From Blepharisma japonicum (taxonomy: Eukaryota; Ciliophora; Heterotrichea; Heterotrichida; Blepharismidae), in the NCBI GenBank assembly GCA_949751835.1, contig CATKHK010000193.1:1-20393 (forward strand): a DNA stretch of 20,393 nt, read 5' to 3'. The notes below the pieces were generated by a model. It was given only the letters and a program-made list of their open reading frames with translations. It made no database searches and was not told where the DNA came from. Positions 1-19,571 of this stretch are shown piece after piece. Numbering within the stretch: position 1 is the stretch's first letter; each line of letters starts with the position of its first letter. The translations under genes were made by a program, and so were the position numbers.

Positions 1-31
1 ACCCTAACACCCTAACACCCTAACACCCTAA
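1..31. repeat. Telomere, CCCTAACA-type repeat (C-rich strand)
   Basis: The first 31 bases are 3.75 copies of the 8-base unit CCCTAACA, reading C-rich from the chromosome end inwards, as expected of a left telomere. The unit matches heterotrich ciliate telomeres (Stentor, Blepharisma) and differs from the CCCCAA of Tetrahymena and the CCCCAAAA of spirotrichs. The tract is short here, probably because the assembly stops inside it. Confidence 0.95.
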
Positions 32-292
32 GCATTTAAAACATTTACTTGAAAATTTTTAGAAATACTTAGCAATTTTAGCAAATATTTGATCAAATGC
101 TAAAATATTAGACATTTTTTAGATAGAATTGACAATTTTAGTGTGCATTTGAGTTCTATTAGCAATATTAGCTTATTGCGTTACCAAACTTGAATTTTTT
201 AACGCATATTTAAAGTTCTCCTCTTAAACAGAATTTTTTATAATTAGATTAAAAACTGTGCATGTTGCTATTTTCTTACTACGTTTGGGAAT
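32..292. other. Subtelomeric spacer, AT-rich, no gene seen
   Basis: This stretch separates the telomere from the 3' end of locus A. It is very AT-rich. Between about 52 and 170 it holds several loose copies of a short AGCAATTTTAGCA-like motif. I find no coding frame that I can support. It must contain the 3' end of the locus A transcript, if there is one. Confidence 0.6.
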
Positions 293-2146
293 TTAATCGT
301 TTTTCACTTCTATACTGATGCTGTTCAAATTTATACTTTGGGTATGATTTTTGAAATCGTCTCATAGACTTGGAGACACAAGACTCTGAATTATGATAAA
401 ATCTATTTTTTCTGAACAATTATCAAGGGGACACTTCATAGCTTTTTCTATAGATTTTTCCTTGATATTATTCTCTAAAAACTGTCGTAAATCTTCTTCA
501 CAAAAATAATGATTGCAAGGAAGCCCTTTCAAGATTCTCGCAGGAAAAATGCTTCTACAAATTCCACATTGTTTTAAAGGCTCAGCAGCTGGATAAGTAA
601 ATTGAGAGTCTTTATTAGGAAAATAGTTGGAATATGACTCCAGCCCCTTTCTTAGCTTTTGCCTTTGAAAATCCATCTGTTCGAGAGCTTCTCTGGCTGC
701 TTTGCGATTTTTTCTTACTTTTACCAAGATAACAATCAAAGCAATTATGATTATAATGAAGACTGCTGAAACAGAAAGTGCAATAGCAAGTATTGTCTTC
801 GAATCATCACCTGAATTATCCGAAGAGTCATCATTGTTAGAATTTGTACCACCTGTGGAAGACCCTGAGCCTGTTGAATTAGTGACACTTGAGCCATTGG
901 ACCCTGAATTGGTAGTGCTAGAGCCATTTCCTGATGATCCTGAGCCACTCCCTGGATTGTGCTATTAGTGCCTGAAGTAGAATTTGTTCCAGAAGACCCA
1001 CTACCAGAACCGTTTGAACTTGTAGAATTATTATAGCTGATCTGAGATGTAAGTCCCACAGTAGTAAAGCCGATTTGCATGTTTTCCATGTCATAAACCG
1101 TATAAAATCTTCTAAGAAAAGCATCGCCCAACACTCATGTATTGTTTATTGTTGAATAATCAAATGTTGGAAGGCAGTCTGAACTACTTTTCCACAAGTA
1201 TCCTGCTGGCTTGATTGTAAATTCTACTCCACTCATTTTGAATAAAAAATTAGGATAATTAGCATTGCAATTGCAATAGAGTTGCCCTAAAACGTCATTG
1301 CAGCTATAATTATCGAGTAAATGCTTCAAAATATCATTAATAGCATCATTTGGCCCTAAAATATTGCTCGTTCCAGAGCTAATTATTGCCTTATTTCCGC
1401 TCGTATAATTAACTCCGTCAAAAATAGCACTATCGAAACCCATTTGAATTTGCTGCTTTAATATATATAAAATTGTTTTCTGCTGAATATTTCTTTAAGT
1501 CATGACCATCAATAATAAGAATTGACTCACCATAATTTGGCAAGTCTGAAGAGCTGTTGTCATCGTTAAGATAAAACGAAAAAATCATGTGGCTAATGTT
1601 ACCCTGGTTATATAAAATATTTAAAATAGAAGGATTTTCATCAGCTGAAGTATGAAAACCTAAGCAAAATATGCCATCTGGCTTGATATTGTCTAGGTTA
1701 GACTCTTTGTTTAATAAAAATATTCCTTGAGCTTCTGCAACAACTCCTCCTATTCCGACCACGTCTTTTCCTGTATATCCTTCTAAAGCATTAAGAGTTA
1801 AATATTTATTTCCGCTTTGAAAGGTTGATGAACTATTGGAATCAAATTTTTTAGCTGAGTCACGGCATTGGGAACAATTTTTCCCATCTATCAAAATCCA
1901 AGAGTACCTTAGGCTTACTATCGCTGTAAAATTTTGTGGAGGGGTTCCAACTCCAAGCTGAATGTAATATTGATCCTAAATAAAGACTACATTATCATAA
2001 TTTGTCATTGTTTCTGAATATGCAAGACTTCTGAATGAAGAGGGATGAGTTTTATTGAAAGAATTTGCTAGAGGTTTCAATTCTCGATGCAAAGGGATGC
2101 GAATTAAGGCTTCTGTTAAAGAAAGGAGTATAAATAAAATCATCAT
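293..2146 (-). pseudogene. Locus A: pepsin-like pseudo-protease / TM / RING1 gene, broken by two frameshifts
   Basis: A paralogue of gene B. It starts at ATG 2146-2144 (a second ATG follows directly) with a hydrophobic signal peptide, MMILFILLSLTEA. After a 15-base intron comes a pepsin-like domain with QLGVGTPPQNF, YSWILI, GDAFLRRF and YDMENMQIGF. The two catalytic sites read SLRYSW and IISSGTS, so neither Asp is present. A Ser/Gly/Asn-rich linker, a transmembrane helix near 790-725 and a RING1-like C3HC3 motif (CGIC, CNHYFC, CPLDNC) follow. TGA codons at 1134-1136 and 362-364 fall where gene B has Trp (AWILGD, IWDKL). The frame ends at TAA 293-295, shortly after RING1, so IBR and Kelch parts are missing. 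Two shifts break it: one near 1436-1443, where about 14 bases that gene B has are absent, and one near 960-975 in the Ser/Gly linker. No GT...AG intron of usual size repairs either. It is probably a pseudogene; assembly errors remain possible. Confidence 0.75.
1976..1990 (-). other. 15-nt intron in locus A
   Basis: On the minus strand the 15 bases run from GTAG to TTTAG. An in-frame TAG at the end would stop translation just before the conserved DQYYIQLGVGTPPQ. Removing the 15 bases joins ...TNYDN to DQYYIQ. The site matches the introns in genes B and C exactly. Heterotrichs are known for introns of 15-16 bases. Confidence 0.9.
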
Positions 2147-2383
2147 TGATTATTTATTTTTTATTGTGTATAAGTTTATTCACTTACTTCAAAGTTTAAA
2201 AATATTTTCTTAAGGCTATATATATTTCGTTTTTGGAGGATGAAAAATGCGGAAAATGTTAATATGAGTTTACTAACCAATAAAAAAAATTAAATATTAA
2301 TAATTATACTTGGGAAATATTTTGTATGTCATTGTATATTTAAAGTAAGTAAACTATGAGAAATAGGCAGCTTTAGTCGCTAA

Positions 2384-2805
2384 TGCCATTTGTTTTACAC
2401 TTATCTAAAAAGCATAGTCACTTTTGAGCAAGATTTTCTAACTTACCTTGCATACATGAATGATGCAAAGTCATTGGAAATGCCTCTCTTAGTTAAGATT
2501 ATTAAATGACCTATGAGATCTTTATCTTACTTTATTCCCCTAGTATCTATAAGTTATTTCTTTAAAGAGACTCAAGTATTGTTTAAGAGTTAGCAGGATA
2601 TGATTTCGAGGTCATCTCTAAGAAGGTCATGATGGAAAAGTGGATTTCTGAATGTTTTAAAAAATCGTTAAGCGATAAAACTCATCCTCCGAGGATTATC
2701 AAATCAGTAGGATGGGCATCTCTAGTGAATTCTCTCTTTCTCAAAGACCTCCTCCCTTGAGCACACAAGTGAAAAATTAAGAGGATAGGCTGGCTTGCAA
2801 CATAA
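2384..2805 (+). pseudogene. Possible decayed coding region, two overlapping frames
   Basis: With TGA as Trp, one frame is open from 2384 to the TAG at 2591-2593 and contains YLAYMNDAKSLEMPL. A second frame is open from 2587 to the TAA at 2803-2805 (72 codons) and contains FEVISKKVMMEKWISECFKK and VGWASLVNSLFLKDLLPW. Codon use and residue mix in the second frame look protein-like. The two frames would form one longer product if joined by a single frameshift near 2585, and no tiny intron fits there. The family is not recognised. A decayed gene or mobile-element remnant is the best guess; chance open frames are possible. Confidence 0.3.
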
Positions 2806-3104
2806 TTTAATGCGTATAACTAGCCTAAGAATTTTAATTTCAACCAGCTTGTTTTAATTGCTAATTCCATTCTGAGATTTCATAAACGTATAGTAGAATA
2901 CCGAAGAGTTTTATGGATTTTTTATTCAAAATTGGGCAAATAATTTAATACAAAAGTCAGCTTGCAAAGAACTTAAATTTTGAATAAACGGAGGTTTAAT
3001 TAAGAAAGCTTTACGAGCTTTACATAAATTTTTCCAAAGTTTATATTTTTTATAACCAATTTTTAGTTTTTCTGATTTTTATTTTTATTTTAAACATTTT
3101 AAGC

Positions 3105-3420
3105 ACAATTTAAAATTGTAGGACGTTTGCAGGGCATTGCCCTACAACGGACTTTAAAAAGGGGAATTCATCTTCTTCTGATGGTCTTAGACCATAGATA
3201 CAACTCACAGGTGTCACCTCATTGGCGAGTTTAAATGAGAGTCCATCTTGGCTAAGGCATTTTAAGCTCTAACGCTCGACATCGTTCTGATCCGTTGCTC
3301 AGAGCCGAACACTGCACTGATAAAGGCATCAAGATGAGAGAATATCATTGAGATTTTGAAGTGCAAGCTTATACAAAGCAATCCAGCCTTCACTTCACTG
3401 GACTATAAGAATAAAAGAGA
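3105..3420. other. Less AT-rich block with a hairpin, function unknown
   Basis: Composition shifts clearly here: this block is visibly richer in G and C than the surrounding AT-rich DNA. At about 3123-3148 an imperfect inverted repeat with arms AGGGC/GCCCT and a 3-base loop can form a hairpin, extended by an outer CGTT/AACG pairing. Another short stem may form around GCTCT...AGAGC (about 3267-3305). No tRNA B box or rRNA motif was seen, and no long open frame. It could be a non-coding RNA gene, a mobile-element fragment or a structured 3' end. Confidence 0.3.
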
Positions 3421-4987
3421 AAATGTTTGAGGATATAAAAGGTGCTATATTGCTTCAATTCTCAAAAAACTAATGTAATCTTATTCTTAATTTTCAATCT
3501 TAAAACTTTTTTAGAGCTTTTAATCAAAAATATATTTAATTCGTTGATAAAAAAGTATAAATTATATAAACCATAAGAAAGATCAGCTATTTTGAGAAAT
3601 TTACATTTCAATTAACTCTTGCGCATTTAATAACTTGAAATTGGCCATAGTGGATTTGACTTTTCCTTCAATTGCCCAAGAATTACTAATCAACAGTAGG
3701 TTTTATTAAATTTTTGAGATAATCAAATTAAGAACTGATTAGGCATTAACTAATCATTACGACTAATTGAAGGACGTTAAATAAAAGATTTATATATATA
3801 TTTTTATTTATCTTGATCTATGCTTCTCTAGACTCAAACTCTTTTGTACAAAGAGTTCTTGAGAAAAATGAGGGGACAAAGTTTTGCTTAATCTTTTGCA
3901 TTCAATACTTTTCTTGGGAATTGTTTCTCCCGAATTTCTCCATACTTGCTAAAAAAATGCTTAGTCTGGTCTGAAATAATTATTTTTGGGTGATCTGTTG
4001 TAAGCGCATGAGAAGCAAAATTGTCTTATATTTTGGGGCCCATACATTACAAATGGTCATAATTATGATCTTATTTATAAGGGAGCCTTCACCTAGGACA
4101 CTGAGCAACCATTTTTTCATGATTCGAATTCTAATCTTTATATAATTCCTGAGCTATCAGGCATTAGGGCCAAAAAAGCAGTCTTCCTCCGTATATGGTT
4201 TTTACCCTTCTAAAATGGATTTTTTTCTGTTATAAACCTGGTTGCATTTACTGTTGAATGCCAAGGCAAAGCGATGAATCAGAATCAACTCAAGCCAAAA
4301 TAGAGCAAATAGCGAGCATCTCCCAAATTTGCAAAATCTCTAATGGCACATAGCATCCATATATATGGGAACCTTACAAAAAGTCAAGAAACAGCTGAGA
4401 CGCCATACATTGTCGTCAGGTAAGCTGAATCGTTCTAAGCAGATTTTAAATATTAATCCTAATATAAAGCATAAAAATTTATAGTAGAAATTATCTATTT
4501 CCACCATTATTATCTTAAAATGTTTAAATAAGCTTCTAATTCTCTTGTTCCCTTATTATAAAAATTTCTTAGCATCTATCAACCTTATGGCAAGCCTTTT
4601 GGAATTAGATTCAAAAATCATTATAGCAATTTATGGCTATTACTGAAGATACCGTGGGAAGGTATCTTCAATTACTTAATTTTTTAATTAAAATACTAAT
4701 CCCAAAACGGTAAGTATAGATTAATAAAATTTTTGCAGCAAAATGCTCTAGATTTCATGTATTAGGTAAACAAGGTCACGCATGACTTATTTTTAAAATA
4801 AATAATAAATTAATAGAACCTTTTTTGAGTTGTGAAAATAAGCTATTAAATCTCATATGTTTTAATGCATTATCCACTTTAATAGATCTTTTTAAAATTT
4901 GATTGCCAGTATTTATTTTTATTTTATTACCTATTAATGCATGATTTAAATGATCTACATAATTGCCTACTAGAAATCCCTATCTTG

Positions 4988-7900
4988 TTATAAAAAGTTA
5001 CTGTGCTGAAGCTTGATCATAACTTTTTTATCCAAATCAAACTTAAAGTAGTAGCGCAGACCTTCAAAATTACCTCCAATATACACCGCACTTTTATTAT
5101 TTACGCAGCAAACCTGATCAGTATGGCCAAACCTAGCTATTGAGTTGGAAATATGTTTTCAAGTAGCTTCATCTCCAAATTCACTTTCGTATATTTTCCC
5201 TTCACATTCAATTAAATACAATCTCTCGACACTGATCAATAATTTTATTTTATTTTCTGAAAAATCAAAAGGAACTCTAGCAAAAAGGTTCAGATCAAGT
5301 GAATATTGCAAAATATTTTTATTGAAATATCCAGATATCAAAATGAATTTCTTAAACTCTATGCAGCTGCATCTGCAATCAGCTAGAGGCATTGGGCTTA
5401 ATTGAGTTCATTTATTTTCATCCAAATTAAATTTTTGGGATAGAGTTAAAGGGTGCTTTTTTACTCCTCCAAAACAGTAAACGTTTCTGTTAAGGTAAAT
5501 AGCTGAAGATTTAATGCAAGGGGTTCCAGATGGAATAACTCGAATTTCACAATTTTTATTAATAATTAATGACGTTCCTGAAGATGATTTATTCCCAAAA
5601 CAGAAGAGTCCACCTTCTGGAAGTTTAGCTATGGATGTATTGCAATCTAATGATTCTAGCGTTTCTAAGACTTTTACTTCTTCTTTTTCTATATCAGTAT
5701 TATAAGCAATTAACTTGGTTTTGTTGCCCTTATAGCTATAAGTAAGATAAATTGATGATTTTTGGCTATAAGAATTGAAAAAGCTTTGAAAAGTAGGGCC
5801 TGGTTGAGAATAATCAATAAAATCCTTTTTCTCATTTAACTGAATATTTGGATTGAAGCTTCGCTCTGAACTTTGGTCATTTGTGAAAATCATAGGTTTT
5901 TTATAAGTTGATAATAAAGGGTTAAATCTAATCTGAGGTTGAATTTCTGGGGCTTTGCTCCTGAAATTATAATAGTCTTTATTTTTTTCTATTTTCATAG
6001 GTAAATTTGGTGATTCACTTTTTTGAACTCGTCGAAGAAATTTGCTATAAGGAGCTTCAGTCTTTTCAAGATTTTTTTGCCTTCTATCTTCTTGATAAGT
6101 CTTTAGATTTAAATCATACCTATATTTTCCAGATAATAATTCGAGACCTTTCTTATTATCACATACTTCTGGGCTTGGCAAGTTCTTTTCTATTCTATAA
6201 AGAATTGGTGGCGGACTAATATAGTTTTCATAAGGCCGAGAGGTAGCAGGCCTTTTATTTTCATTTGTTGCAGGATTTATTCTGTAATCATGCTCATTTT
6301 CTGGCTTATTCCATTTCTCTGAAATTGTATAAATCATTGGGATTGATTGAACTTGATGAATTTTTGGTATTTCTTTATTTTCACTCTTTTCTTCTGGTTT
6401 TATAGAATTATTGTGAGCTTGACTTAGGTTTTTATTAGAATCATATCTATTAATAGAATCAGATGAAAAAGATCTGAAGCTTCCTTGCTTAGGTTCCAAA
6501 ATATATTTATCTTGCTCAATGGCAGCTTTTCTGATTGGAATTTCATAATTTTGAGGTATCTTTTGGATTTTTATTGATTCTCCTTGATTATCTTGGGTTA
6601 TTGGAAGAATGGAAGCAGATTTTTCTTTTCTAAGCCATGGGTAACTTGGTTTGAAATCTTGGTTTTGATTAATTGGATTTTCGATGTTTTGAGCTATTCT
6701 AGGAGAAATTTTATATTGTGATTGTGGATTCTCTATTTCAAGAGAAGGGCGAGTACAAAAGTTCACTTTAGTGTCCCTTTCAGGGGCTTGTCTTAAGTCT
6801 TCCAAGTAAGCATTTTTAACAGGTGGATCTAAAGGAAAGATCTTTTTCTCCTCTGATGGAAATGATATTCTGTCAATTTGCTCAAATTTGTGGTGAATCA
6901 TCTCCTCTTTAATTTTAGTTTGAATTTGTGGAGTGCTTATTTTAGGAGCTTCAAGCCGTTGAGGAATCTCTTGAATTTCAGTTTTTGGTTTTTTCTTTTT
7001 AGGATGTTGCATAGAAGAAGGAATTTTTAATTTTTCAGGTTTCCTGTAGCCTTCCTTATCTTTCCATTGAGGAACCAATTCTTGATCTGTCTTTATTTGT
7101 TTTTCCAGTAAAGAGAAACTGTTTTGATCAAACGGATTATGCATAATTTCTCTAATCTCCTTCTTCTCATCGTTTTCAGCAGGTGGTTGAGGTTGGGGAT
7201 TAGCAGTAGGTCTCTTTTTTTTACTCGGTGAAATTATGCTCTTCATGCTCTGATCATTCGGTTCTGCTACTGATTCTTTGCGCTCTTCATTTTTTTCTTC
7301 ATTTTCTAAAGGTATATCCTGATCTATAGATTTATTCTCGATCCCTTGATTTTCATTATCCTTTCTTCAATTTTCGAGAACTCTTTTGTACTCTTCTATA
7401 TTTTCTGTTATTTCAGATATATAATTCTTTGCTTCTTTTATCTCATGAGATCCAGCCTTAAGTGTTTTTTTGTATTCTTTCAAATTTTCCAATTTAGCTA
7501 TTAAGTTTCCAATTGTTATCAAAGCCCAAGTTTCTTGGCAATTTCCGTTATCATGCCAATTTTCATTGCATTCTGTACAAAATGTATGCCCACATTTTTT
7601 ACATTTTGCTTTTCTTGACTCATGAAAATTAAACTTTTCACTACAATTGGGGCATGTGACAATCCTGAAATCACATGTGATTATAAAGAAGTTTAGTTTA
7701 TCCCATATACTTTTAGGCAAAATATCCAGCAGAAAATTTAACTCAATTTCTTTTTTGCAACTATTAAGAGGGCATCTCAAAGCTTTGGCAAATAAATTCT
7801 CCTTGATGCATGACTGGATGCTTTTTCGTAAATCTTTTTTGCAAAAAATATGACCGCACTGAAGAGTTTTTAATAGGGAAATGGAAAAACTTTTATTGCA

Positions 7901-9220
7901 AATTTTGCATTCTTCTTGCGAAGAGTCATTATCTTCACGATCACAGCTATGATTACGCTTTTTCCATATGCATGCAAATATAAACCCAATAATAATGATA
8001 AGCAATGATGTAGATAATGCAATAATTATGCCCAGCGCTCAATTTTCCATAGAATTACTTTTACCAGAATCGTCAGCTTGAGATCCTGAGCCTACTTCAA
8101 TCTGTGATTGAGCTCCTATCGTAGAAAAGCCGATTTTCTTGGTTTCCATATCATAAAGAGTATAAAACCTTCTAAGAAATGCATCGCCCAGAATCCATGC
8201 ATCAGTAACAGCTGAGTAGCCAAATACTAAGAAGCAATCTTTGTTTAATTTTTGTAAATACCCAGCAGACTTAATCCTGAACCTAGTTCCGCTTATTTGA
8301 ATTACTATATCAGGATAATTTGCATCGCAGTTGCAAATCAGCATATTGTTACTGTTACAGCTAGCATTACTCTGCAACTGTTGCAAAATTCCATCAATGA
8401 CTTCTTTTGGCCCAAGGATTCCCTTTTCTCCTGGACTAATTATTGCTTTATTACCGCCTTTAAATGTTGTGACACCTAAGATTACTTCATCAAAGCTCAT
8501 TTCCCAATATTTACCCGATTTTACTACACTTATATAAGTAAACTCTTTTTCTACTGCATATTTATAAATATCATGACCATCAATAATAAGCATTGATTGA
8601 CCTTTATCAGGCAAGTCAGAAATAGTGCTTACATCATTTAAATAAAGCGAAAAAACCATATTCTCTATGCCATTTTGATCATGTAATGTTTTTAAAATTG
8701 AGACAGCTTGCTCTTGAGAAAAGCCTAGCCCTAATATTCCATCTGCCTCAAGATTATTCATTCCATACTCGATGTCTATTAAAAACACTCCTTGAGATCC
8801 AGCAGAAAGAGTTCCTATTCCGACTGTGTCTCTTCCAGAATTTCCCTGCATTTTCTCAACAGCGTCCATATTTCATTCATTATTGTCTTTTTTGAAAGTT
8901 GTAGATTTTGATGGATCAAATTTATTAGCTCATTTTCGGCACTGTAAACATTTTTTTTGATCTATAAAAATTCAAGAGGTTTCCAGAGATAATGATAAAG
9001 AAAAATTTTGGGGAGGAGTTCCAATCCCAACCTCAACATAATATTGACTCTAAATAAAAATCACATTTTGTAAATTTTTCATAGTGGCTGATGATGAAAG
9101 TCCTCTAAGTGAAAATGGAGGAGATGGGTTAGGCAAGACTCTTAAGGGCTTTGATTTTTCAAGCAATGGTATCCGTATTTCGGTTTTTGCCAAAAAAAAG
9201 AAGATAAATAACAGAATCAT
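4988..9220 (-). CDS. Gene B: pseudo-pepsin ectodomain / TM / RING1-IBR / Kelch-like membrane protein, 1405 aa
   Basis: Start ATG 9220-9218, one 15-base intron, stop TAA 4990-4988. Read with TGA = Trp it is one open frame of 1405 codons. Domains: signal peptide 1-12 (MILLFIFFFLAK); pepsin-like ectodomain about 53-370 with EVGIGTPPQNF, ADGILGLGF, YWEMSFDEV (233-241) and WILGDAFLRRFYTLYDM. Catalytic site 1 is LETSW (Glu75) and site 2 is IISPGEK (Ser257), so activity is unlikely. TM helix about 391-414, followed by basic WKKR; RING1 with C433, C436, C450, H452, C455, C478, C483; IBR-type C518, C521, C535, C538, C543, C546, H551, C556. A catalytic RING2 is not seen. Then a likely coiled coil (565-612), a charged Pro/Lys-rich disordered stretch (to about 1150) and a Kelch-like propeller (about 1153-1405; VYCFGG, ENKWTQLSPMP). 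TGA codons specify W78, W92, W111, W389, W613, W1266 and W1349. Probably a single-pass surface protein with an E3-like or scaffold tail; substrate and ligand are unknown. Confidence 0.88.
9050..9064 (-). other. 15-nt intron in gene B
   Basis: The minus-strand sequence GTGATTTTTATTTAG is 15 bases long with GT...AG ends. Without its removal, an in-frame TAG would precede SQYYVEVGIGTPPQ. Removal joins KNLQN (residue 52) to SQYY (residue 53) in phase 0, between the propeptide-like region and the first strand of the pepsin-like fold. Confidence 0.92.
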
Positions 9221-9340
9221 TGATTAATTATATTATAGAAGCTTAATATAAAGATTTATTGTGAGTAAATAAATTGATCTAGTAAGTTAGCTTCTAACGA
9301 CAATTCATTCTATAATTTTTTATAGTGCTTTAAAATATTT
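9221..9340 (-). promoter_or_regulatory. Upstream region of gene B, similar to that of gene C
   Basis: The 5' flank of gene B aligns with that of gene C. The bases just before the ATG read TATAATTAATCA in both, and blocks around AATAAATTGAT and CTATAATTTTT lie at similar distances. Locus A keeps only ATAATCA. The conserved flank was either duplicated along with the gene or is under constraint as a core promoter and 5' UTR. No individual regulatory site can be named. Confidence 0.45.
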
Positions 9341-9494
9341 TTTGAACAGTTTCTGCATGTGGAAAATTCTTCTACGTATGGAAAAAAAAACTTTTCTTGT
9401 GTGAAGAGGTTTCCATAAATAGTGCAACGCTCAATAAGATTATTAAGTAAATTCTATTAATTTTTTTTATAATGCTCTCAGATTAAATCATAAT

Positions 9495-9869
9495 TTAGCA
9501 CAGACTAAGCCAAATCTCATTTATAACTAACGAACACACCCAAAGACTTAAAAATACTAGCGCAGAAATCATAAGAGGGTAAACTAGATTTCATTTATCA
9601 TCTGAGCTATTAGAAGAGCCTTTTGAACTAGGAGAATCAGAGATGTTGATTTGAGATGTATATCCCACAGTAGCAAAGCAAATTTTCTTGTTTTTCATAT
9701 CATAAAGTGTATAAAATCTTCCGAGATAAAAGCTATCGGATAGATAAATATCGCATAAGCTCAATTTCTTATAGCGTGTAACTTGCTGTAATATACAATC
9801 ATAAATATTTTTCGATAGTGATGCCAAATCTTGAAGAGAAAAATTCAATATTAATTTATTTATCCTCAT
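9495..9869 (-). pseudogene. 3' fragment of a gene C-like pseudo-protease gene
   Basis: On the minus strand, from about GRFYTLYDMKNKKICFATVG onwards, this is nearly identical to the end of the gene C ectodomain, including the linker SSKGSSNSSDDK, a TGA-coded Trp and the start of the membrane helix (YPLMISALV). The helix then diverges and stops at TAA 9497-9495. Upstream of GRFYTLYDM only faint similarity remains (SDSFYLGRF against GNSFLRRF), and the rest of the pepsin-like domain is absent. An ATG at 9869 could start a 124-residue protein without a signal peptide, but a truncated duplicate is more likely. It lies between genes B and C, probably left by unequal exchange. Confidence 0.75.
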
Positions 9870-10038
9870 GCTAACAGAAATAAAATGAGTTCTAAAGTTT
9901 TATAAGCTTCAATAATTATTTCCTATTACTCATTTCTTTGCAATTATGATGGATTTATGGCTAGAATAAAATTCCTGCTTTGCGCCTATATATATATTTA
10001 TATTTTAACTGTTTCCTATTCATATTTATTTTTAACTA

Positions 10039-11445
10039 TTATTCGTGAGCTTCTTCATTTCTATTATGATCTCTATGGTAATGTCTATGTCTATGTTTAT
10101 GATTTTTTATGTCTATTTCTACCTCGTCTACTTCCACTGCTACTTCCTCTTTTTCATAATACTCACGACTATATCATACTTTAACACAGAGTATTACTAG
10201 CGAAGCCACCCAAATACTAAAAACTACTAGCGCAGAAATCATAAGAGGATAAGCTAGATTTCATTTGTCATCTGAGCTATTAGAAGAGCCTTTTGAACTA
10301 GGAGAGCCAGAGATGTTGATTTGAGATGTATATCCCACAGTAGCAAAGCCGATTTTCTTGCTTTTCATATCATAAAGTGTATAAAATCTCCTAAGAAAAG
10401 AGTTGCCTAAAATTCATGTATCAGAAATTGTTGAGTAGCCCAAGATTGGGGAGCAATCTTTATTTAATTTTTGCAAATATCCAGCTGATTTAATTTTAAG
10501 CTCATTTCCATCTATTCTGAATACTAAATCAGGATAATTTGCATTGCAGTCACAAATCAACTGATTATTGCTATTAATATTACAGCTGCTGTTACTTCGC
10601 AATTGCTGTAAAATTTCATCAATATCATTTCTTGGCCCAAGGATTCCCTTTTCTCCTGGACTGATTCTTGCTTTATTACCACCTGTAAATGTTGAAGCAT
10701 CTAAATCTACTTCATCGAGGCTCATTTCCCAATATTTATCGTTTTTTATTGTACTTATATAAGTAAAATCATTTTCTGCTGCATATTTAGAAATATCATG
10801 ACCATCAATAATAAGCATTGATTGGCCTTTATCAGGCAATTCAGAAAATGAATTGATATCATTTAAATAAAGGGAAAAAATCATATTCTCTATATAATTT
10901 TGGTCATATAAATTTTTTAAAATCGAGACAGCTTGGCCTTCAGAAAAGCCTAGCCCTAAAATCCCATCTGCAAGAAGATTATCCATTCCACTCTCGCTGT
11001 AAATTAAAAACAGTTCTTGAGAATCAGCAGAGAGAGCTCCTATTCTGACTGTATCTTTTCCAGCATTTCCCTGTATTTTGCCATCTGTATCAGCGTTCAT
11101 TTTATTATTGGTCTTTTTGAAAGTTGCAGATAGTGCTGAATCAAATTTATTAGTCCATTTTCGGCACAGTGAGCATTTTTTTTGATCTATAAAAATTTGC
11201 GAGGTTTCTAGGGATAATGATAAAGAAAAGTTTTGTGGAGGAGTTCCAATGCTAACCTTAATATAATATTGACTCTAAATAAAGCTCACATTTTGTGAAT
11301 TTGTCAAAAGAGATGGAGATAAAAGTCCTCTGAATGAAAATGAGTCAAGCGAGCTAGGTAAAGTTGTTAAGGACTCTGATTTTTCATGCAATGGCAATAA
11401 AATCTCAGCATCTACAGAGATAACGAAGATAAACAAAAGAATCAT
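10039..11445 (-). CDS. Gene C: pseudo-pepsin single-pass membrane protein with short His-rich tail, 463 aa
   Basis: Start ATG 11445-11443, 15-base intron at 11275-11289, stop TAA 10041-10039, TGA read as Trp at several places. It has a signal peptide (MILLFIFVISVDA), a 50-residue propeptide-like stretch and a pepsin-like domain with KVSIGTPPQNF, ADGILGLGF, KYWEMSLDEV and WILGNSFLRRFYTLYDM. The Trp of WILGN is TGA, where gene B has TGG. Catalytic site 1 is LETSQ and site 2 is ISPGEKG, so both Asp residues are missing, as in gene B. A Ser-rich linker leads to one membrane helix (YPLMISALVVFSIWVASLVI). The cytoplasmic tail is about 40 residues: an acidic stretch (EKEEVAVEVDEVEID), then alternating His and Arg (KHRHRHYHRDH). 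RING, IBR and Kelch parts are absent. It could be a co-receptor, decoy or metal-binding form of the gene B type; this is inference. Confidence 0.87.
11275..11289 (-). other. 15-nt intron in gene C
   Basis: The minus-strand bases are GTGAGCTTTATTTAG, 15 long, GT...AG. Splicing joins ...NSQN to SQYYIKVSIGTPPQ and removes an in-frame TAG. Position and phase match the introns of locus A and gene B. Confidence 0.92.
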
Positions 11446-11545
11446 TGATTAATTATATTATTTGATGCTTCATCATAAAGACTTATCTGCGTCAATAAAT
11501 TGATATAGTAGTTAACTGCTAAAGACAAATTATCTATAATTTTTT
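11446..11545 (-). promoter_or_regulatory. Upstream region of gene C, similar to that of gene B
   Basis: TATAATTAATCA directly precedes the ATG, and similarity to the gene B flank continues for roughly 100 bases. The likely core promoter and 5' UTR are included. Beyond about 11545 the two flanks diverge. Confidence 0.45.
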
Positions 11546-12107
11546 TAAAATTTTATTAAGGAAAATTCTATTGAAAAACTTTGTGTAATAAAAAAAAAGT
11601 TATTTGATTACCATAACGATAAATCTATTTAGTATGAATGTTTCCAATACAGAGATGCTATATTTAGCATTATATAGTCTTAATATTTGAGTAATGGAAT
11701 ATGTGAATTTGATTCCTGCCTTGAATTTTTTCTATAAAGGAATGCGAGCACTAGCATTTTTAAAATGAATATTTAGATTCATTCTATAAATACAATTTAT
11801 AGAGAGAGTTAAGGTATTAATATTCATAATTTTTAATGGGCTTTTTATTTTTTCGAGTTTACTGTTGATATCAATAGTAATGGAGTTTATTTTAGAATTA
11901 AGCAGCCCTGCCTCATTCTCATTCTCTATTTTTAATCTCATTAAATTTTGAAGCCTTTTAAAAGAAATCGAATTCTTAATGCTTGCGAACTTCACCAAAA
12001 TGATAGCACTTTAGAAATCAGAATTTAACAATTGACATTTATATATAAAAAAAATTATAAAAAATTTATTAAAGTCAATAACTCTGAAATTGAGTCTTGG
12101 TTTGACT
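11546..12107. other. AT-rich spacer between genes C and D with one weak minus-strand frame
   Basis: No supported gene. A minus-strand frame is open from about 12009 down to the TAG at 11732-11734 (contains NLMRLKIENENEAGLLNSK) but has no ATG at its head. It lies where the 3' part of gene D would be expected, so it may be a remnant of the helical region of that gene. I could not align it convincingly to E, F or G. Confidence 0.35.
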
Positions 12108-12482: not shown

Positions 12483-13043
12483 CTACAATTATTATTAAAA
12501 TAGCTAATTTATATGAAAAAATGTACATTTTTTTAGACAATCCTAAACACAGAAAATTCAATAAATAATTTGCATTCTTATGATAAAGAATTTATGAATA
12601 GCTGATTTGGGCTTGAACTTGCATTAGCATAAATTGAGTACTCCAAGGATTAATAATGGCAAGCATCCCTTTGGAAAATTTAGGCTATCAAAATTCTTAT
12701 GTTTACTATCTGATGATTTGCTTTGGCAACTTAAGAAGATTAGATAGAATCGCAATATTCCCTTCATACTTCACGCTACTATTATAATAGATTTCATATA
12801 GAAAGCTCATCATCAAGCCTAATATGTTTTAAAGCTTATATCATAAGCCTTTCCTCTTAGCAAGAGATCAAAATGAATTATATAATAAATGGATTAATAG
12901 TTAACCCAAGCTTTTCTTAGAGATAATCATAACTTTTTCGTCATAATTAAATTTGCAATAACTATTATAGGATTTCATATAATCTGATGTCCAATATAAT
13001 TGACTTAGGAGTCTAAATTAATGGAAAATATAATCCTAAGAGT
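12483..13043. promoter_or_regulatory. Divergent intergenic region between D and E
   Basis: It separates the divergent genes D (minus) and E (plus), so it should carry both promoters. Roughly 12905-13043 aligns with the 5' flank of gene G (about 18360-18482), with shared blocks CAATAACTATTA, AATCTGATGTCC and AATTGACTTAGG. The last 40 bases also match the leader of gene F (GAGTCTAAAT, AATATAATCCTAAGA). On the minus strand, 12960-12901 can be read as YCKFNYDEKVMI ending in TAA, like the Kelch-like end of gene B (YFKFDLDKKVMI). Confidence 0.5.
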
Positions 13044-14519
13044 ATGAGCACCATAAGATGCTATCAGCCAAAATGTGACCGAGAAGTTGAATTTTCATGC
13101 AATTGCACTTCGCCTGATACCTATTTTTGCCAAAAACACTGTGGGGGTCATTTAATATCTAGTAAAGGACCTCATAATCTCACCTCATTATTTTATGAGC
13201 CTTTTGAAGGCACAAAAGAAGCGATCCTTAGCATTCTTGAAGAAGAAAAATCAAAATTCGAAGAAATAAAAGTAAATATAATCGCTTCTTTTTCTCAAAC
13301 TATTTTTAGTTATGAAAATATACTTAAACAAGTTTTAAAAGAAATCGACTCTCATTCTGCAAAAATTGGCAAGCATGTTGAAAAAATCTTATTAACACAA
13401 AAACTATCTAGATTGGAGAAAGATCCAGCTTTAAATTTGTTAGCTTTGCAATCAAATGATGCTGTTGATAAAGCTAGAGTAATTCTTACAGCAAGAGAAA
13501 ATGAGAACATTAAATTATTTTGTGATATAGGAAGACAAATTGATATAATTATCATGAGCTTTAATGAAGAAAAGTCCAAATTTATTTCAGATGAAATGCA
13601 TTGAGAATTAAAGAGCAATCTTAAAGAGGGAATGAATTTTAAGAATGAAGGGGAAAAATTACAGCCAGCAATAGACAAGTATAAAGAAGCTATCAGAATT
13701 GATTCAAATGATGCTGATGCATACAACGGTATAGGAGATATTTTCTATAATGAAAAGAGATATGAAGAAGCAGTAAAACATTACAACGATGCAATTATAA
13801 TCAATCCAAATAGTACAAAATATTATACAAATAAAGGAAGCGCTCTTAGAGAGTTAGGCAGAAGTGATGAAGCTATGGAATGCTATAAAGAAGCTATCAG
13901 AGTTGATCCAAATAATGAACCTCCATACAATGGTATAGGAGATATCTTCTATAATGAAAAGAGATATGAAGAAGCAGTAAAACATTACAACGATGCAATT
14001 AGAATCAATCCAAATAAATCGATTTATTATTTTAATAAAGGAAATGCTCTTAGAGAGTTAGGCAGAAGAGAAAAAGCTATGGAATGCTATAAAGAAGCTC
14101 TCAGAATTGATCCAAATCATGCTGATGCATACTTTGGCATAGGAGATATCTTTGCAAATGAAAAGAGATATGAAGAAGCAGTAAAATATTACAACGATGC
14201 AATTAGAATCAATCCAAATGATGCACTTTATTATACAAATAAAGGAAATGCTCTATATTTGTTAGGCAGAAGAGAAGAAGCTATGGAATGCTATAAAGAA
14301 GCTCTCAGAATTGATCCAAATCATGCTGATACATATTTTGGCATAGGAAATATCTTTTCAAATGAGAAGAGATATGAAGAAGCAGTAAAAAATTACAACG
14401 ATGCAATTAGAATCAATCCAAATTTTGCACTTTATTATAGAAATAAAGGATTAGCTCTCAAATTATTAGGCAGAAAAGAAGAAGCTATGGAATGCTTTAA
14501 CAGAACTAAAAAATTATAA
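13044..14519 (+). CDS. Gene E: B box-like zinc finger / helical / 8-TPR protein, 491 aa
   Basis: I start it at the ATG that reads MSTIRC, shared by E, F and G. Residues 1-44 hold a B box-like zinc finger (C6, C11, C19, C21, C29, H32, H36, H44). Residues 46-205 are helical and coiled-coil-like (EEEKSKFEEIK, SYENILKQVLKEIDS). From residue 213 there are four 68-residue double-TPR units, that is eight TPRs, with the usual A-Y-x3-G and Y-x2-A-x2-Y-x2-A-I patterns. Codon 187 is TGA (DEMHWELKSN) where F and G have TGT (Cys); reading it as Trp keeps one frame through to TAA 14517-14519. TPRs usually bind other proteins and B boxes mediate assembly, so a cytoplasmic scaffold or adaptor is likely. No RING is present. 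The partner is unknown. Confidence 0.9.
13680..14495 (+). repeat. Four tandem 204-bp double-TPR units in gene E
   Basis: Units start at 13680, 13884, 14088 and 14292, each exactly 204 bases (68 codons, two 34-residue TPRs). Each begins YKEA(I/L)RID and its second TPR begins with the NDAI...NPN block. The phrase TACAACGATGCAATTAGAAT recurs almost unchanged, so the repeats are recent or homogenised. Confidence 0.92.
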
Positions 14520-14840
14520 ATGGTTTAATCTTATCAATAATAAAATATATTTTACTAGATCCCTTTTATTTATTATTATTATTATAAAGATTTATTAAAC
14601 TTATGCAGTTAAAGCTACAAACTTTTTATAATTTTAAAATATAGCGATTTATGATAACTTGAACGGGCTCTATTTTTGCTAGGACAATCCACATTATTCA
14701 CATACTTGCCCATTTTGCTTAGCTGTAATTTCTCAACATAGGCTGATATAATTTTTCTAGCTGAAATTCAATTTATGTGAATTTATTCGCTCAAAACACG
14801 ATGTGAAACACATGGCATTATGGGACAAACCTTCAGCTTT

Positions 14841-14928
14841 AGTGAATTCTGTGCAGGTCAATATTAGATTTTCAAAGGTGCAACTGCATCACACCAGTAG
14901 CCTGCATGAATGTTGTGCATGATAATAA
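14841..14928 (+). repeat. Diverged direct repeat, copy 1
   Basis: It begins AGTGAATTCTG, continues with a TTTTCAAA block and a CATCACACC block, and ends TGTTGTGCAT-GATAATAA. It pairs with 15208-15294. No open frame crosses it, so it is not a coding repeat. Confidence 0.7.
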
Positions 14929-15207
14929 TTATTTCAATAATGAGATTGCGTTTACACCTGCAGCTTGCACCAGCATGAATTGAAGCATGTTATAGGTTAA
15001 GACCTTCACTTGCCTTGATTTCATCCAGCATGTAATGTTTGGTGAATAATGATAATGCCTTAATTCAGATGCTAAATTTATTTGTTTTAAAATTATATAA
15101 CTTATATGACTTTTATTGTAAATGTTTTTGCAGCCTGATATTTGATTTTTCTAAAAGAAATTTAATTTCAAATGTACAGCTATGCCATTTTTAGCTTTTA
15201 TATATTT

Positions 15208-15294
15208 AGTGAATTCTGCATAGGCTGATATTGAATTTTCAAATATGAAGCTGCGTCACACCTGTATCTGCATGACGTTGTGCATTATGAATAA
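15208..15294 (+). repeat. Diverged direct repeat, copy 2
   Basis: The same order of blocks as copy 1: AGTGAATTCTG, TTTTCAAA, CGTCACACC, GTTGTGCAT, with roughly three quarters of positions shared by eye. The short motif ATAGGCTGATAT at its head recurs in variant form near 14739 and 15134. Similarity continues weakly on the 3' side of both copies (TTTGGTGAAT...ATGAT near 15038 and 15360). Confidence 0.7.
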
Positions 15295-15825
15295 ATTTCA
15301 CTTAATATAAGTCTTCTTCAGTAATTTCATTTTTACTGCCATAATTTCTAGGATGGTACATTTGGTGAATCATGATGATCTTATACAGATAATTGGCTTA
15401 TTTGTTTAAAGCATGATGTAGCACACATGACGCATCATTGTTTCCTCTAAACAGTTTAATTTTATTTTTCTGTACCTAGTAAGTTACCTGGAACCTTATG
15501 GAAGAGAGTGTATCGTTCGGAAATTCAATAAAAATAATATTTTGCTTTGGTCAAAAATTTAAAATAAGCCTTCTGCATCATGCCTAAGGCACCGATAATC
15601 TGAATTGACAGTTGGATGTGCTTTTAAAAGCCTTTTAAACCCTGCTGACCTTAATCTCCATTCAATTTAGCTTCACTTATAGCAATCCTACACATAATAT
15701 GGGCGATTTTATCAGGTGTTGACTTATCAGATTGCTACATACGCAAAAGAAATTTTATTAGAACGTAAAAAATTAAATCTCCACATCTAGGAGTCTAAAT
15801 GAATGAAAAATATAATCCTAAGAAT

Positions 15826-17709
15826 ATGAGCACCATAAAATGCGATTGGGCAAAATGCGACCGAGAAATTGAGTTTTCATGCAACTGCGCTTCTTCTGAT
15901 AAATATTTTTGCAAAAAACACTGTGGGAAACATTGCATATCTAGTAAAGGACCCCATGATCCCATCTCATTATTTTATGAGCCTGCTGAAGGCACAAAAG
16001 AAGCGATCCTTAGCTTTCTTAAAGAAGAAAAATCAAAAATCAAGGAAATAAAAACAAATCTAATCGCTTCTTTTTCTCAAACTATTTGTAGTTATCAAAA
16101 TATACTTAAACAAGTTTTAAAAGAAATCGACTCTGATTATACAAAAATTGGCAGTTATGTTGAAAAAATCTTATTAACACAAAATCTATCTAGATTTGAG
16201 ATAGATCCGGCTTTAAATTTGTTAGATTTGCAATCAAATGATGCTGTTGATAAAGCTAGAGTTATTTTTACAGCAAGAGCAAATAAGAGCATTGAATTAT
16301 TTTGTGATATAGGAAGACAAATTGATATAATTATCAAGGGCTTCTATGAAGAAAAGTCCAAATTTATTTCTGATGAAATGCATTGTGAATTAAAGAGCAA
16401 TCATAAGGAGGGCATGAACTTTGAGAATGAAGAAGGAAAATTACAGCCAGCACTAAACAAGTATAAAGATGCAATCAGAATTGATCCAAATAATGCTGAT
16501 GCATACAATGACATAGGATTTATCTTCTATAATGAAAAGAAATATAAAGAAGCAGTAAAATATTACAACGACGCAATTAGAATCAATCCAAACTCTGTAA
16601 ATTATTATTTTAATAAAGGAAATGCTCTTAGAGAGCTAGGCAAAAGAGAAGAAGCTATGGAATGCTATAAAGAAGCTATCATAATTGATCCAAATCATGT
16701 TGATGCATACAATGTCATAGGATGTATCTTCTATGATGAAAAAAGATATGAAGAAGCAGTAAAATATTACAACGATGCAATTAGAATCAATCCAAATGGT
16801 ACAAAATATTATACAAATAAAGGAAATTCTCTTAGAGAGCTAGGCAGAAGAGAAGAAGCTATGGAATGCTATAAAGAAGCTATCATAATTGATCTAAATC
16901 ATGCTGATGCATACAATGGCATAGGAGATATCTTCTATAATGAAAATAGATTTGAAGAAGCAGTAAAATATTACAACGATGCAATTAGAATTAATCCAAA
17001 TGGTGCAAAATACTATACAAATAAAGGAAATGCTCTTAGAGAGTTAGCCAGAAGAGATGAAGCTATGGAATGCTATAAAGAAGCTATCAGAGTTGATCCA
17101 AATAATGCACCTCCATACAATGGCATAGGAGATATCTTCTATAATGAAAAGAGATGTCAAGAAGCACTTAAATATTACAACGACGCAATTAGAATCAATC
17201 CAAATAAATCAATTTATTATTTTAATAAAGGAAATTCTCTTAGAGAGTTAGGCAATAGAGATGAAGCTATGGAATGTTATAAAAAAGCAATCAGAATTGA
17301 TCCAAATAATGCACCTCCATACAATGGCATAGGAGATATCTTCTATAATGAAAAGAGATGTCAAGATGCGCTTAAATATTACAACGATGCAATTAGAATC
17401 AATCCAAACTTTGCACTTTATTATAAAAATAAAGGAAATGCTATTAGAGGGTTAGGCTGAATAGAAGAAGCTATAAAATGCTATAAAGAAGCTATCAGAA
17501 TTGATCCAAATCATGCTGATGCATACAATGTCATAGGATGTATCTTCTATAATGAACAGAGATATGAAGAAGCGCTTAAATATTACAACGATGCAATTAG
17601 AATTAATCCAAATAAACCACTCTATTATACAAATAAAGGAGAGACTCTGGAGAAGTTAGGCAAAAGAAAAGAAGCTAAGAAATGCTTTAACAGAGCTAAA
17701 CAATTATAA
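15826..17709 (+). CDS. Gene F: B box-like zinc finger / helical / 12-TPR protein, 627 aa
   Basis: The longest member of the tandem family. The start chosen is the ATG of MSTIKCDWAKCDREIEF, which matches E and G; an in-frame ATG at 15799 would add nine residues (MNEKYNPKN), but the corresponding upstream ATGs of E and G are out of frame. Zinc-finger residues are C6, C11, C19, C21, C29, H32, H36 and H44. The helical region runs to about 205, and six 68-residue double-TPR units start at residue 213. Codon 545 (17458-17460) is TGA in the loop GLGWIEEA, where sister units have Arg, Lys or Asn; as Trp it leaves the frame open for another full unit to TAA 17707-17709. A stop there would cut the last unit. 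Probably a cytoplasmic protein-binding scaffold; the partner is unknown. Confidence 0.9.
16462..17685 (+). repeat. Six tandem 204-bp double-TPR units in gene F
   Basis: Units begin at 16462 and every 204 bases after it; six fit exactly. Units 4 and 5 share the unusual NNAPPYNGIGDIFYNEKRCQ block and are nearly identical to each other, pointing to a recent internal duplication. Unit 6, after the TGA codon, is a little more diverged. Confidence 0.92.
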
Positions 17710-18482
17710 AATGCATAATCTTATCAATAATGAAATATATCTTCCGAGATCTCGATTTATTATATATATAGATTTATTAAAACTCGTAGTTAAAGAAACA
17801 AACTTTAGTTTTAAAATAAAAGCTCAAAAAATGAATCTGTTTATAAAATAGAGCAAAGAGAAAGCTAATCCTTTGAAATGAACTCAAATAACTTTTAATC
17901 CTAAATGATGCCCTTTACTCTGCAGGTAAAGCAGCTATTGCGATATATGACTAGCATTTCAAGGATAGTAGATAGAAGAAATTCTTTAAATCAATGAAAT
18001 AAGCTTAAATAGTTAAATTAATTTTGAATAATTAATTTTCCTTATTTTATGCGCATCTTTAGCTCTAATGTCTAGATGGCGTTTTCATTTAAATTCCAAA
18101 GTTAAACCAAGAGTTGAAACAATCATACTCTTGCCAAATTTACAGCTCAAGCTACAATTTTCATTTTAAACAAAGCATGCCAAATTTCGTTCTCAAAAAC
18201 TATTCAAAACTGTCATTATTTGGCATTCAATTTGAATAATTTTATTTATAGTTAGCTTTACCATTTCAAGGCAAATAATCGAAAATTTTGCTCTCTCATA
18301 AATATATTTTTCTTTCTCAAGAGGAAATTTTTTTGAAGATATTTTATCAAATTTTCTTTAGTTAATCATCACTTTTTAAGCTTAATTAAACTTTCAATAA
18401 CTATTACAGAATTTCGTGCAATCTGATGTCCTAGATAATTGACTTAGGTGCCTAGATTTAATGGAAATATAATTGTAAGAAT
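17710..18482. other. Intergenic region between F and G: duplicated 3' flank and G promoter
   Basis: No gene seen. The first part (to about 18300) aligns with the DNA downstream of gene G, including a perfect 39-base match (17748-17786 against 19589-19627) and the block GATGGCGTTTTCATTTAAATT. The last 120 bases align with the 5' flank of gene E. The region is therefore a junction of two duplicated units. Confidence 0.65.
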
Positions 18483-19571
18483 ATGAGCACCATCAAATGT
18501 TATTGGCCAAGATGTGACCAAGAAGTTGAGTTTTTATGCGACTGCACTTCCCCTGATACTTATTTTTGCAAAAAACATTGTAGGAGTCATTGTACATCTA
18601 ATGAAGGACCTCATAAACCCATCTCATTATTTTATAAGCCTGTTGAAGGCACAAAAGAAGCGATCCTTCGCTTTCTTGAAGAAGAGCAATCAAAAATTGA
18701 ACAAATAAAAACAAATATAATTGCTTCTTTTTCTCAAACTATTTGTAGTTATAAAAATATACTTGAGCAAGTTTTAAAAGAAATCGATTCTGATTATACA
18801 AAAATTGGCAATTATATTGAAAAAATCCTATTAACACAAAAACTATCGAGATTTAAGAAAGATCCAACTTTAAATTTGTTAGATTTGCAATCAAATGATG
18901 CTGTTGATAAAGCTAGAGTAATTTTTACAGCAAGAGCAAATAAGAGCATTGAATTATTTTGTGATATAGGAAGACAAATTGATATAATTATGAAGGGCTT
19001 CTATGAAGAAAAGTCCAAATTTATTTCTGATGAAATGCATTGTGAATTAAAAAGCAATCATAAAGAGGAAATGAACTTTGAGAATAGAGGAGAAAATTTA
19101 CAGCCAGCACTAAATAAGTATAAAGAAGCAATTAGAATTGATCCAAATGATGATGGTGCATACAATAACATAGGAGTAATTTTTTATGATAAAAAGAGAT
19201 ATGAAGAAGCAGTAAAATATTACAACGATGCAATTAGAATCAATCCAAATGATGCACTTTATTATGCAAATAAAGGATTCGCTCTATATGAGTTAGGTAG
19301 AAGAGAAGAAGCTATGGAATGCTATAAAGAAGCTATCAGAATTAATCCAAATAATGCTGATGCATACTTTGGCATAGGACTTATCTTTGCAAATAAAAAG
19401 AGATATGAAGAAGCAGTAAAACATTTTAACGATGCAATTAGAATCAAACCAAATGAAGCAGATTATTATATAAATAAAGGAAATTCTCTTAGCTTGCTAG
19501 GCAGAAAAGAAGAAGCTATGAAATGTTTTAACAGAGCTAAAAAATTATGAAATGCAGAAACTTATCAATAA
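18483..19571 (+). CDS. Gene G: B box-like zinc finger / helical / 4-TPR protein, 362 aa
   Basis: The shortest intact family member. It starts at MSTIKCYWPRCDQEVEF with the same eight zinc ligands as E and F, a helical region, and only two 68-residue double-TPR units from residue 213. The codon at 19548-19550 is TGA, at the exact place where E and F end with TAA (KKL-stop, KQL-stop). Read as Trp, the protein gains WNAETYQ and ends at TAA 19569-19571. If this TGA does act as a stop, the protein has 355 residues. The helical region is closest to that of gene F, while the 5' flank resembles that of E. Role as for E and F: a likely cytoplasmic adaptor with a smaller TPR surface. Confidence 0.88.
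19119..19526 (+). repeat. Two tandem 204-bp double-TPR units in gene G
   Basis: Units start at 19119 and 19323. Both keep the 68-codon length and the NDAIRI block, as in E and F. Confidence 0.92.

Follow-up and report, generated by a model that had tools for sequence, protein, structure and literature searches.

Does one gene of the ciliate Blepharisma japonicum join a pepsin-like outer domain, a membrane helix, part of a ubiquitin ligase and a Kelch-type domain in a single protein, and, if so, how could such a protein have arisen and what might it do? The locus that raises this question lies at positions 4988 to 9220, on the minus strand, of contig CATKHK010000193.1 (assembly GCA_949751835.1). 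The window is this entire contig (C193; 20,393 nucleotides), and the genome searched comprises 45.2 Mb in 224 contigs. On balance, and with moderate confidence, we favour the explanation that the locus encodes one type I membrane protein, which would have arisen by insertion of a linker and a Kelch domain into a gene for a dead pepsin, a transmembrane (TM) helix and an RBR ubiquitin ligase (E3), and which may act as a receptor or adaptor without RING2 transthiolation. Its parts, and a relic downstream of it, are as follows.

9065..9220, minus strand: exon 1, 52 codons, with a signal-peptide-like start (MILLFIFFFLAKTE...) and a short pro-like segment
9050..9064, minus strand: 15-nucleotide intron GTGATTTTTATTTAG, identical in a second copy on contig C78
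4988..9049, minus strand: exon 2, 1353 codons and a TAA stop, with seven TGA codons read as tryptophan
8120..9046, minus strand: pepsin-fold (A1) ectodomain with Ser at both catalytic Asp positions (Pfam Asp, PDB pepsin, alignments)
7973..8041, minus strand: single TM helix, then WKKR (sequence, hydropathy and a modelled helix with a predicted local distance difference test score, pLDDT, of 73-78)
7757..7909, minus strand: RBR-type RING1, ligands C381 C384 C398 H400 C403 D406 C426 C431 (P0001 numbering)
7538..7681, minus strand: IBR domain (Pfam IBR, 1.4e-5; range of the ARIH1 alignment)
5825..7525, minus strand: linker rich in Lys, Glu, Pro, Asn and Gln, about 570 codons, with a short helical-looking start
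4991..5824, minus strand: Kelch-type C-terminal domain (Kelch_6 profile, paralogues, weak PDB matches)
3823..4147, minus strand: decayed RING2 relic past the Kelch stop, interrupted by stops and frame changes; a firm match from 4115 on, a weak one over 4147-4112

An initial annotation had proposed one continuous frame of 1405 codons, with TGA as tryptophan and one 15-base intron, and its coordinates, code and intron proved correct, the strand being minus. The spliced frame from 9220 to 4988 is single and has no internal TAA or TAG; one translated plus-strand frame of the same interval contains many stops, which rules out that reading. When the 4059 coding bases of exon 2 were shuffled (500 mononucleotide shuffles), frames free of TAA and TAG reached 196 codons at most, and for this reason we reject chance as the source of the open frame. 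Ten of the 12 dead-pepsin genes examined, counting the window gene and its C78 copy, have a 15-nucleotide intron at the same position and an equivalent exon 1; none was found in the dead-pepsin genes of contigs C8 and C21 within the 153 and 176 nucleotides upstream that were examined. For Blepharisma stoltei, a CCCTAACA repeat, UGA as tryptophan, introns of 15/16 bp, 66% AT and a genome of 41 Mb have been described (PMC9942806).

The expectation of a pseudo-pepsin ectodomain followed by one membrane helix was borne out. The ectodomain matches Pfam Asp above its cut-off (9.8e-48) over profile positions 1-314 of 315, both lobes included; its best PDB pepsin match reaches 3.7e-30, and Pfam also returns a weak TAXi_N match. 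When 11 members of the dead-pepsin family were aligned to two active relatives, none had Asp in either catalytic column: the first holds Ser in nine, Asn in one and Gly in one (a broken copy); in the second, 10 members have Ser and one has Thr. Judged from this alignment, the ectodomain is catalytically dead, both D[TS]G aspartates being lost. Six of its cysteines are invariant among eight aligned sequences. Pepsin-type frames with both active-site motifs are common among the loci examined (19 rows, simple pattern), and some other membrane-anchored pepsin-type frames (L016, L017) also lack both motifs. The signal-peptide-like start and the single TM helix between lumenal domain and RING are present by sequence and hydropathy only.

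Zinc ligands of a RING1 and an IBR follow the helix, as had been claimed, and can now be refined to the RBR type. Both Pfam matches (zf-RING_UBOX, 2.3e-7, and IBR) exceed their cut-offs, the RING1 ligands run C-C-C-H-C-D-C-C (seven Cys/His and Asp at one position, with a last pair of C-x4-C), and the closest PDB relative of RING1-IBR by sequence is ARIH1 (1.8e-9). A structure model, built on five segments of the window and usable for the TM helix and RING1 and partly for IBR, gives a RING1 (pLDDT about 80) that resembles RBR RING1 structures. Pfam FYVE barely reaches its cut-off over the IBR stretch (27.8 bits); IBR is preferred because the stretch comes after RING1 and, like RING1, aligns to ARIH1. 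RING2 with its catalytic Cys is absent from the frame of the window gene. By these matches we read the zinc module as an RBR cut short after IBR (RING1-IBR) rather than the RING-H2 of protease-associated (PA)-TM-RING proteins, and the product probably keeps binding of ubiquitin-conjugating enzyme (E2) without the RBR catalytic cysteine.

In RBR ligases, RING1 binds E2~ubiquitin and hands the ubiquitin to the RING2 cysteine; such RING1s seldom transfer it directly. As it has no RING2, the protein should therefore be an E2-recruiting adaptor or require a partner. The best-surviving alternative, which we nevertheless regard as unlikely, is an active, PA-TM-RING-like transmembrane RING E3 whose RING1 would pass ubiquitin from E2 directly to substrates that the Kelch domain or the ectodomain holds. 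Consistent with such activity, the seven Cys/His ligands plus Asp are kept, Ile occupies the C-x-I-C position, a contact site for E2, and between the two gene copies RING1-IBR has the lowest ratio of nonsynonymous to synonymous divergence (dN/dS) of the regions compared (0.26). Its RBR type, with the C-x4-C last pair, and the location of RING2 outside the frame argue against it.

The likely fate of RING2 emerges from comparison with contig C99. This contig carries a dead-pepsin-TM-RING1-IBR-RING2 gene (locus L014, 5137-7233, minus strand) that aligns to ARIH1 through RING2, including a cysteine that we take to be the catalytic one; judged by its domains, it appears to be a membrane RBR ligase that is complete and carries an ectodomain. 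With the C99 RING2 as tblastn query, one further place in the window scores at E < 0.01, namely 4115-3823 on the strand of the gene, equivalent to C99 residues 598-698. The alignment of the window gene with C99 runs to C99 residue 585, just past IBR, and the relic begins within about 13 residues of that point; a weak match at 4147-4112 (E 0.39, local region) would extend it to the residues directly after the C99 IBR. In both the window and C78 the relic lies ~0.85 kb beyond the Kelch stop, and one stop near the start of the domain is common to the two. Its main pieces have bit scores of 30.8 and 26.9 (window) and of 38.1 and 26.6 (C78); among 300 copies of the window generated by a first-order Markov model, the best single match scored 26.2 bits. 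Next to the relic, no remains of RING1 or IBR were found at E up to 1e-3. A RING2 outside the frame, surviving as a broken relic downstream, points to the likely origin of the gene and speaks against ordinary RBR catalysis. The simplest reading of these matches would be that a dead-pepsin-TM-RBR ancestor received linker and Kelch (about 3.4 kb) between its IBR and its RING2.

We thus propose an ancestor with the order dead pepsin, TM, RING1, IBR and RING2, of which C99 appears to be an intact example; the segment with linker and Kelch would have entered between IBR and RING2, and the severed RING2 would have decayed. With a signal-peptide-like start and basic residues after the TM helix, the ectodomain would be lumenal or extracellular and the zinc module cytosolic. 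A non-catalytic pepsin cleft is still able to bind peptide or protein, and this one would serve as a ligand-binding domain. RING1-IBR, the E2-binding half of an RBR ligase, would recruit E2~ubiquitin and perhaps an E3 partner, while the Kelch domain, held on its flexible linker, would contact a cytosolic partner. We infer a membrane receptor or adaptor in ubiquitin signalling that brings E2~ubiquitin to Kelch-bound or receptor-bound proteins, with no transthiolation by RING2.

The back half deserves a closer look. A disordered linker and a Kelch-like C-terminus had been predicted; the linker does look disordered, and the Kelch description is supported through paralogues: the Kelch_6 match of the window protein stays below the cut-off (2.5e-4, 21.4 of 25.3 bits), which is why the label rests on its relatives, four of four scanned paralogues passing. 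The domain shares 49-50% identity with two soluble Kelch proteins and 43% with the C78 gene at 27790, and its weak PDB matches include KLHL20 and KLHDC10; a Pfam scan of the window protein up to E=1 gave no BTB domain. The main part of the linker has two genome matches, its own locus and the C78 copy, and we reject its reading as a known protein; comparison with the stretches that precede Kelch in three soluble genes of that family gave no convincing match (best E 0.13). Kelch matches were obtained in all 142 places scored out of 1030 first-look candidates, so the family is larger than 142; 50 of the 142 start within 15 kb of their contig's first base (hand count), a zone that holds no more than 7.4% of the genome. 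Among the Kelch genes, two whose whole sequence was read look soluble, with a Cys/His-rich start, which the window Kelch lacks, and a long, probably coiled-coil middle. A B-box label for this start was dropped in favour of the neutral name because Pfam gave no B-box match in the two pieces tried. In a Kelch tree of 18 rows the two membrane-anchored Kelch types stand apart, which suggests that they captured the domain independently; we put this no more strongly because a constraint to a single clade is not rejected (approximately unbiased test, AU, p=0.067).

The gene has a second copy on C78, with exon 2 at 23548-19508 plus stop, and C193 and C78 are 92.9% identical over window positions 4689-11791 and 88-93% in larger pieces from 31 to 11791; past 11791, no match to C78 12000-39999 passed the filter. 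The C78 copy, which is either an allele or a duplicate, keeps the intron and has an open frame of 1399 codons; its three indels, of 3, 12 and 3 bases, leave the frame intact. Because this diverged copy carries the same join, an assembly artefact is ruled out as the origin of the fusion. The two exons 2 differ by 211 substitutions, none of which creates a stop, where 9.0 stops would be expected at random (P=9e-5). dN/dS is low towards the front (exon 1, 0.29; pepsin part, 0.57), and reaches 1.5 in the stretch after IBR and 2.5 around the TM helix (10 changes only).

Several observations weigh against our explanation. Segment by segment, the lack of stops is significant for the linker only, and is not significant by itself in the pepsin part (P=0.24), TM-RING-IBR (0.19) or Kelch (0.42; 17 changes). 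dN/dS stands near 1 for the linker, at 0.88 for the Kelch part and at 0.77 for the whole gene, and linker plus Kelch give no sign of purifying selection between the copies (p=1.0). As purifying selection on the protein concerns the front half, it is the open frame by itself that speaks for the back half. The fold of the Kelch part predicted from single sequence had a pLDDT of 32, and that model was left unused; the pepsin part of the structure model was poor. Finally, the relic could derive from another lost RBR gene.

These same data bear on a reading a little less probable than an active RING E3, and likewise unlikely in our view, in which the locus would not encode one protein: a dead-pepsin-TM-RING-IBR protein would stand beside a separate linker-Kelch protein or non-coding remnant, or the whole locus would be decaying. 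The dN/dS near 1 of linker and Kelch fits this, as do the broken paralogues nearby (the one at window 296-1975 and, on C78, the two A1-TM-Kelch genes). Both copies, however, are free of stops and the only indels between them are in frame, and the Kelch domain lacks the Cys/His-rich start of the two fully read soluble genes. The nearby RING2 relic has several stops against none in linker and Kelch, which would have arrived simultaneously if an insertion took place. Least probable of the three is a sorting or scavenger receptor whose dead pepsin would bind lumenal cargo and whose RING-IBR-Kelch tail would serve traffic, as has been proposed for plant RMR receptors. In its favour, a lumenal protease-associated domain, one TM helix and a RING occur together in PA-TM-RING and RMR proteins (PMC4021871, PMC5085694); against it, the PA domain and pepsin are different folds.

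Returning to the membrane protein proposed here, the surroundings of its gene place it among relatives. Besides the gene, the window contains the following.

1-31: telomere repeat CCCTAACA, three full repeats, at the left contig end only
296..1975, minus strand: downstream paralogue, dead pepsin-TM-RING with one RING and frame changes
10042..11274, minus strand: second exon of an upstream paralogue, dead pepsin-TM-short tail

The gene had been presented as a domain order without a match. Indeed, no report of this order was found in the literature (open-licence PMC papers) and an NCBIfam scan gave nothing useful; the gene does not stand alone, however: it belongs to a local family whose tails differ from one another, and we consider this family the more interesting object. 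In a protein search, close dead-pepsin ectodomains (at least 48% identity; next best 39%) occur at 12 genome places, three on C193 (one in two pieces), five on C78 and one each on C8, C99, C156 and C189. A TM helix with a short tail is found at window 10042-11274, in its C78 counterpart and on C8, and the tails on C156 and C189 carry a RING and an apparent half IBR. The C78 counterpart of window 296-1975 (13880-16294, minus strand, in L011) has an uninterrupted frame in which dead pepsin and TM helix are followed by three RING1 units in tandem, without an IBR match. Two further C78 genes combine dead pepsin and Kelch without RING, one at 27790-30099 (weak TM, broken start) and one at 33760-36058 (frame change before Kelch). 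It is possible, and we suggest it tentatively, that these genes belong to an exchangeable set in which two N-termini (membrane dead-pepsin; soluble, Cys/His-rich and probably coiled-coil) are combined with common C-terminal modules (RBR and Kelch, with TPR on the soluble side), many of the genes lying near contig ends, and that recombination would keep yielding new receptor-to-ubiquitin adaptors; the window gene would then be a Kelch inserted into a membrane RBR ligase.

Other sequences were noted in passing. Upstream of the gene, window 9899-9498 (minus strand) preserves a short piece of a dead-pepsin gene, with C-terminus and TM helix, and 12482-11627 (minus strand) is a remnant of a soluble Kelch-family N-terminal part without Kelch, its DNA 88-90% identical to C99 L014 338-1430. 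Three tandem TPR genes with arrays of differing length follow on the plus strand (13017-14519, 15799-17709 and 18462-19571), their N-termini being of the Cys/His-rich kind seen in soluble Kelch genes. On C97, two long multi-zinc-finger RBR-like genes (L039 265-2664 and L040 242-3121, minus strand) have closely similar C-terminal halves and different N-termini; the Cys/His-rich start heads L039, and that of L040 differs. A tandem array with many IBR matches lies at about 85-105 kb of C125.

Few membrane RING ligases have a folded outer domain, and a review of the human ones describes PA-TM-RING proteins as unique here (PMC4021871). If our explanation is true, the dead-pepsin family, with one full RBR member and one RING2-less RBR with Kelch, would be a second, independent solution, and the RING2 relic would make both the gain and the loss of a module readable from one locus. 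The gamone 1 receptor is termed putative in a Blepharisma paper (PMC10892320), and for that reason Blepharisma surface families with cytosolic effector modules merit attention; these analyses gave no tie of the window gene to mating.

How, then, does the protein compare with known systems? Its likeness to PA-TM-RING proteins (GRAIL, RNF13, RNF167; plant RMR), to which the initial annotation had pointed, holds as an analogy of layout, with a signal peptide, a lumenal protease-related domain, one TM helix and a cytosolic RING. Membership fails: Pfam gives no PA domain up to E=1, Asp covering the entire ectodomain, and in place of a RING-H2 finger after the TM helix there is a module whose best relatives are RBR RING1s; the Kelch domain is an addition. 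With Kelch E3 adaptors (KLHL/BTB-Kelch, KLHDC) it has in common a C-terminal Kelch-type domain on a ubiquitin-linked protein, differing in being membrane-bound and without BTB. Plant xylanase inhibitor TAXI and the pregnancy-associated glycoproteins are non-catalytic A1 proteins that share the pepsin fold and the loss of catalytic residues; TAXI is soluble, in contrast to the membrane-anchored window protein with its cytosolic zinc module. RBR ligases (ARIH1, ARIH2, HOIP, parkin; those with hydrophobic regions include RNF144A/B, RNF19A/B and RNF217) share RING1 and IBR by sequence and RING1 also by model, whereas the window protein has no in-frame RING2 catalytic Cys, unlike C99, and adds a large folded ectodomain and a Kelch domain after IBR. 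Because it departs from PA-TM-RING proteins in two defining features and from RBR ligases in lacking RING2, we assign it to neither group: it probably descends from an RBR ligase, and we rate it a variant of the transmembrane RING protein.
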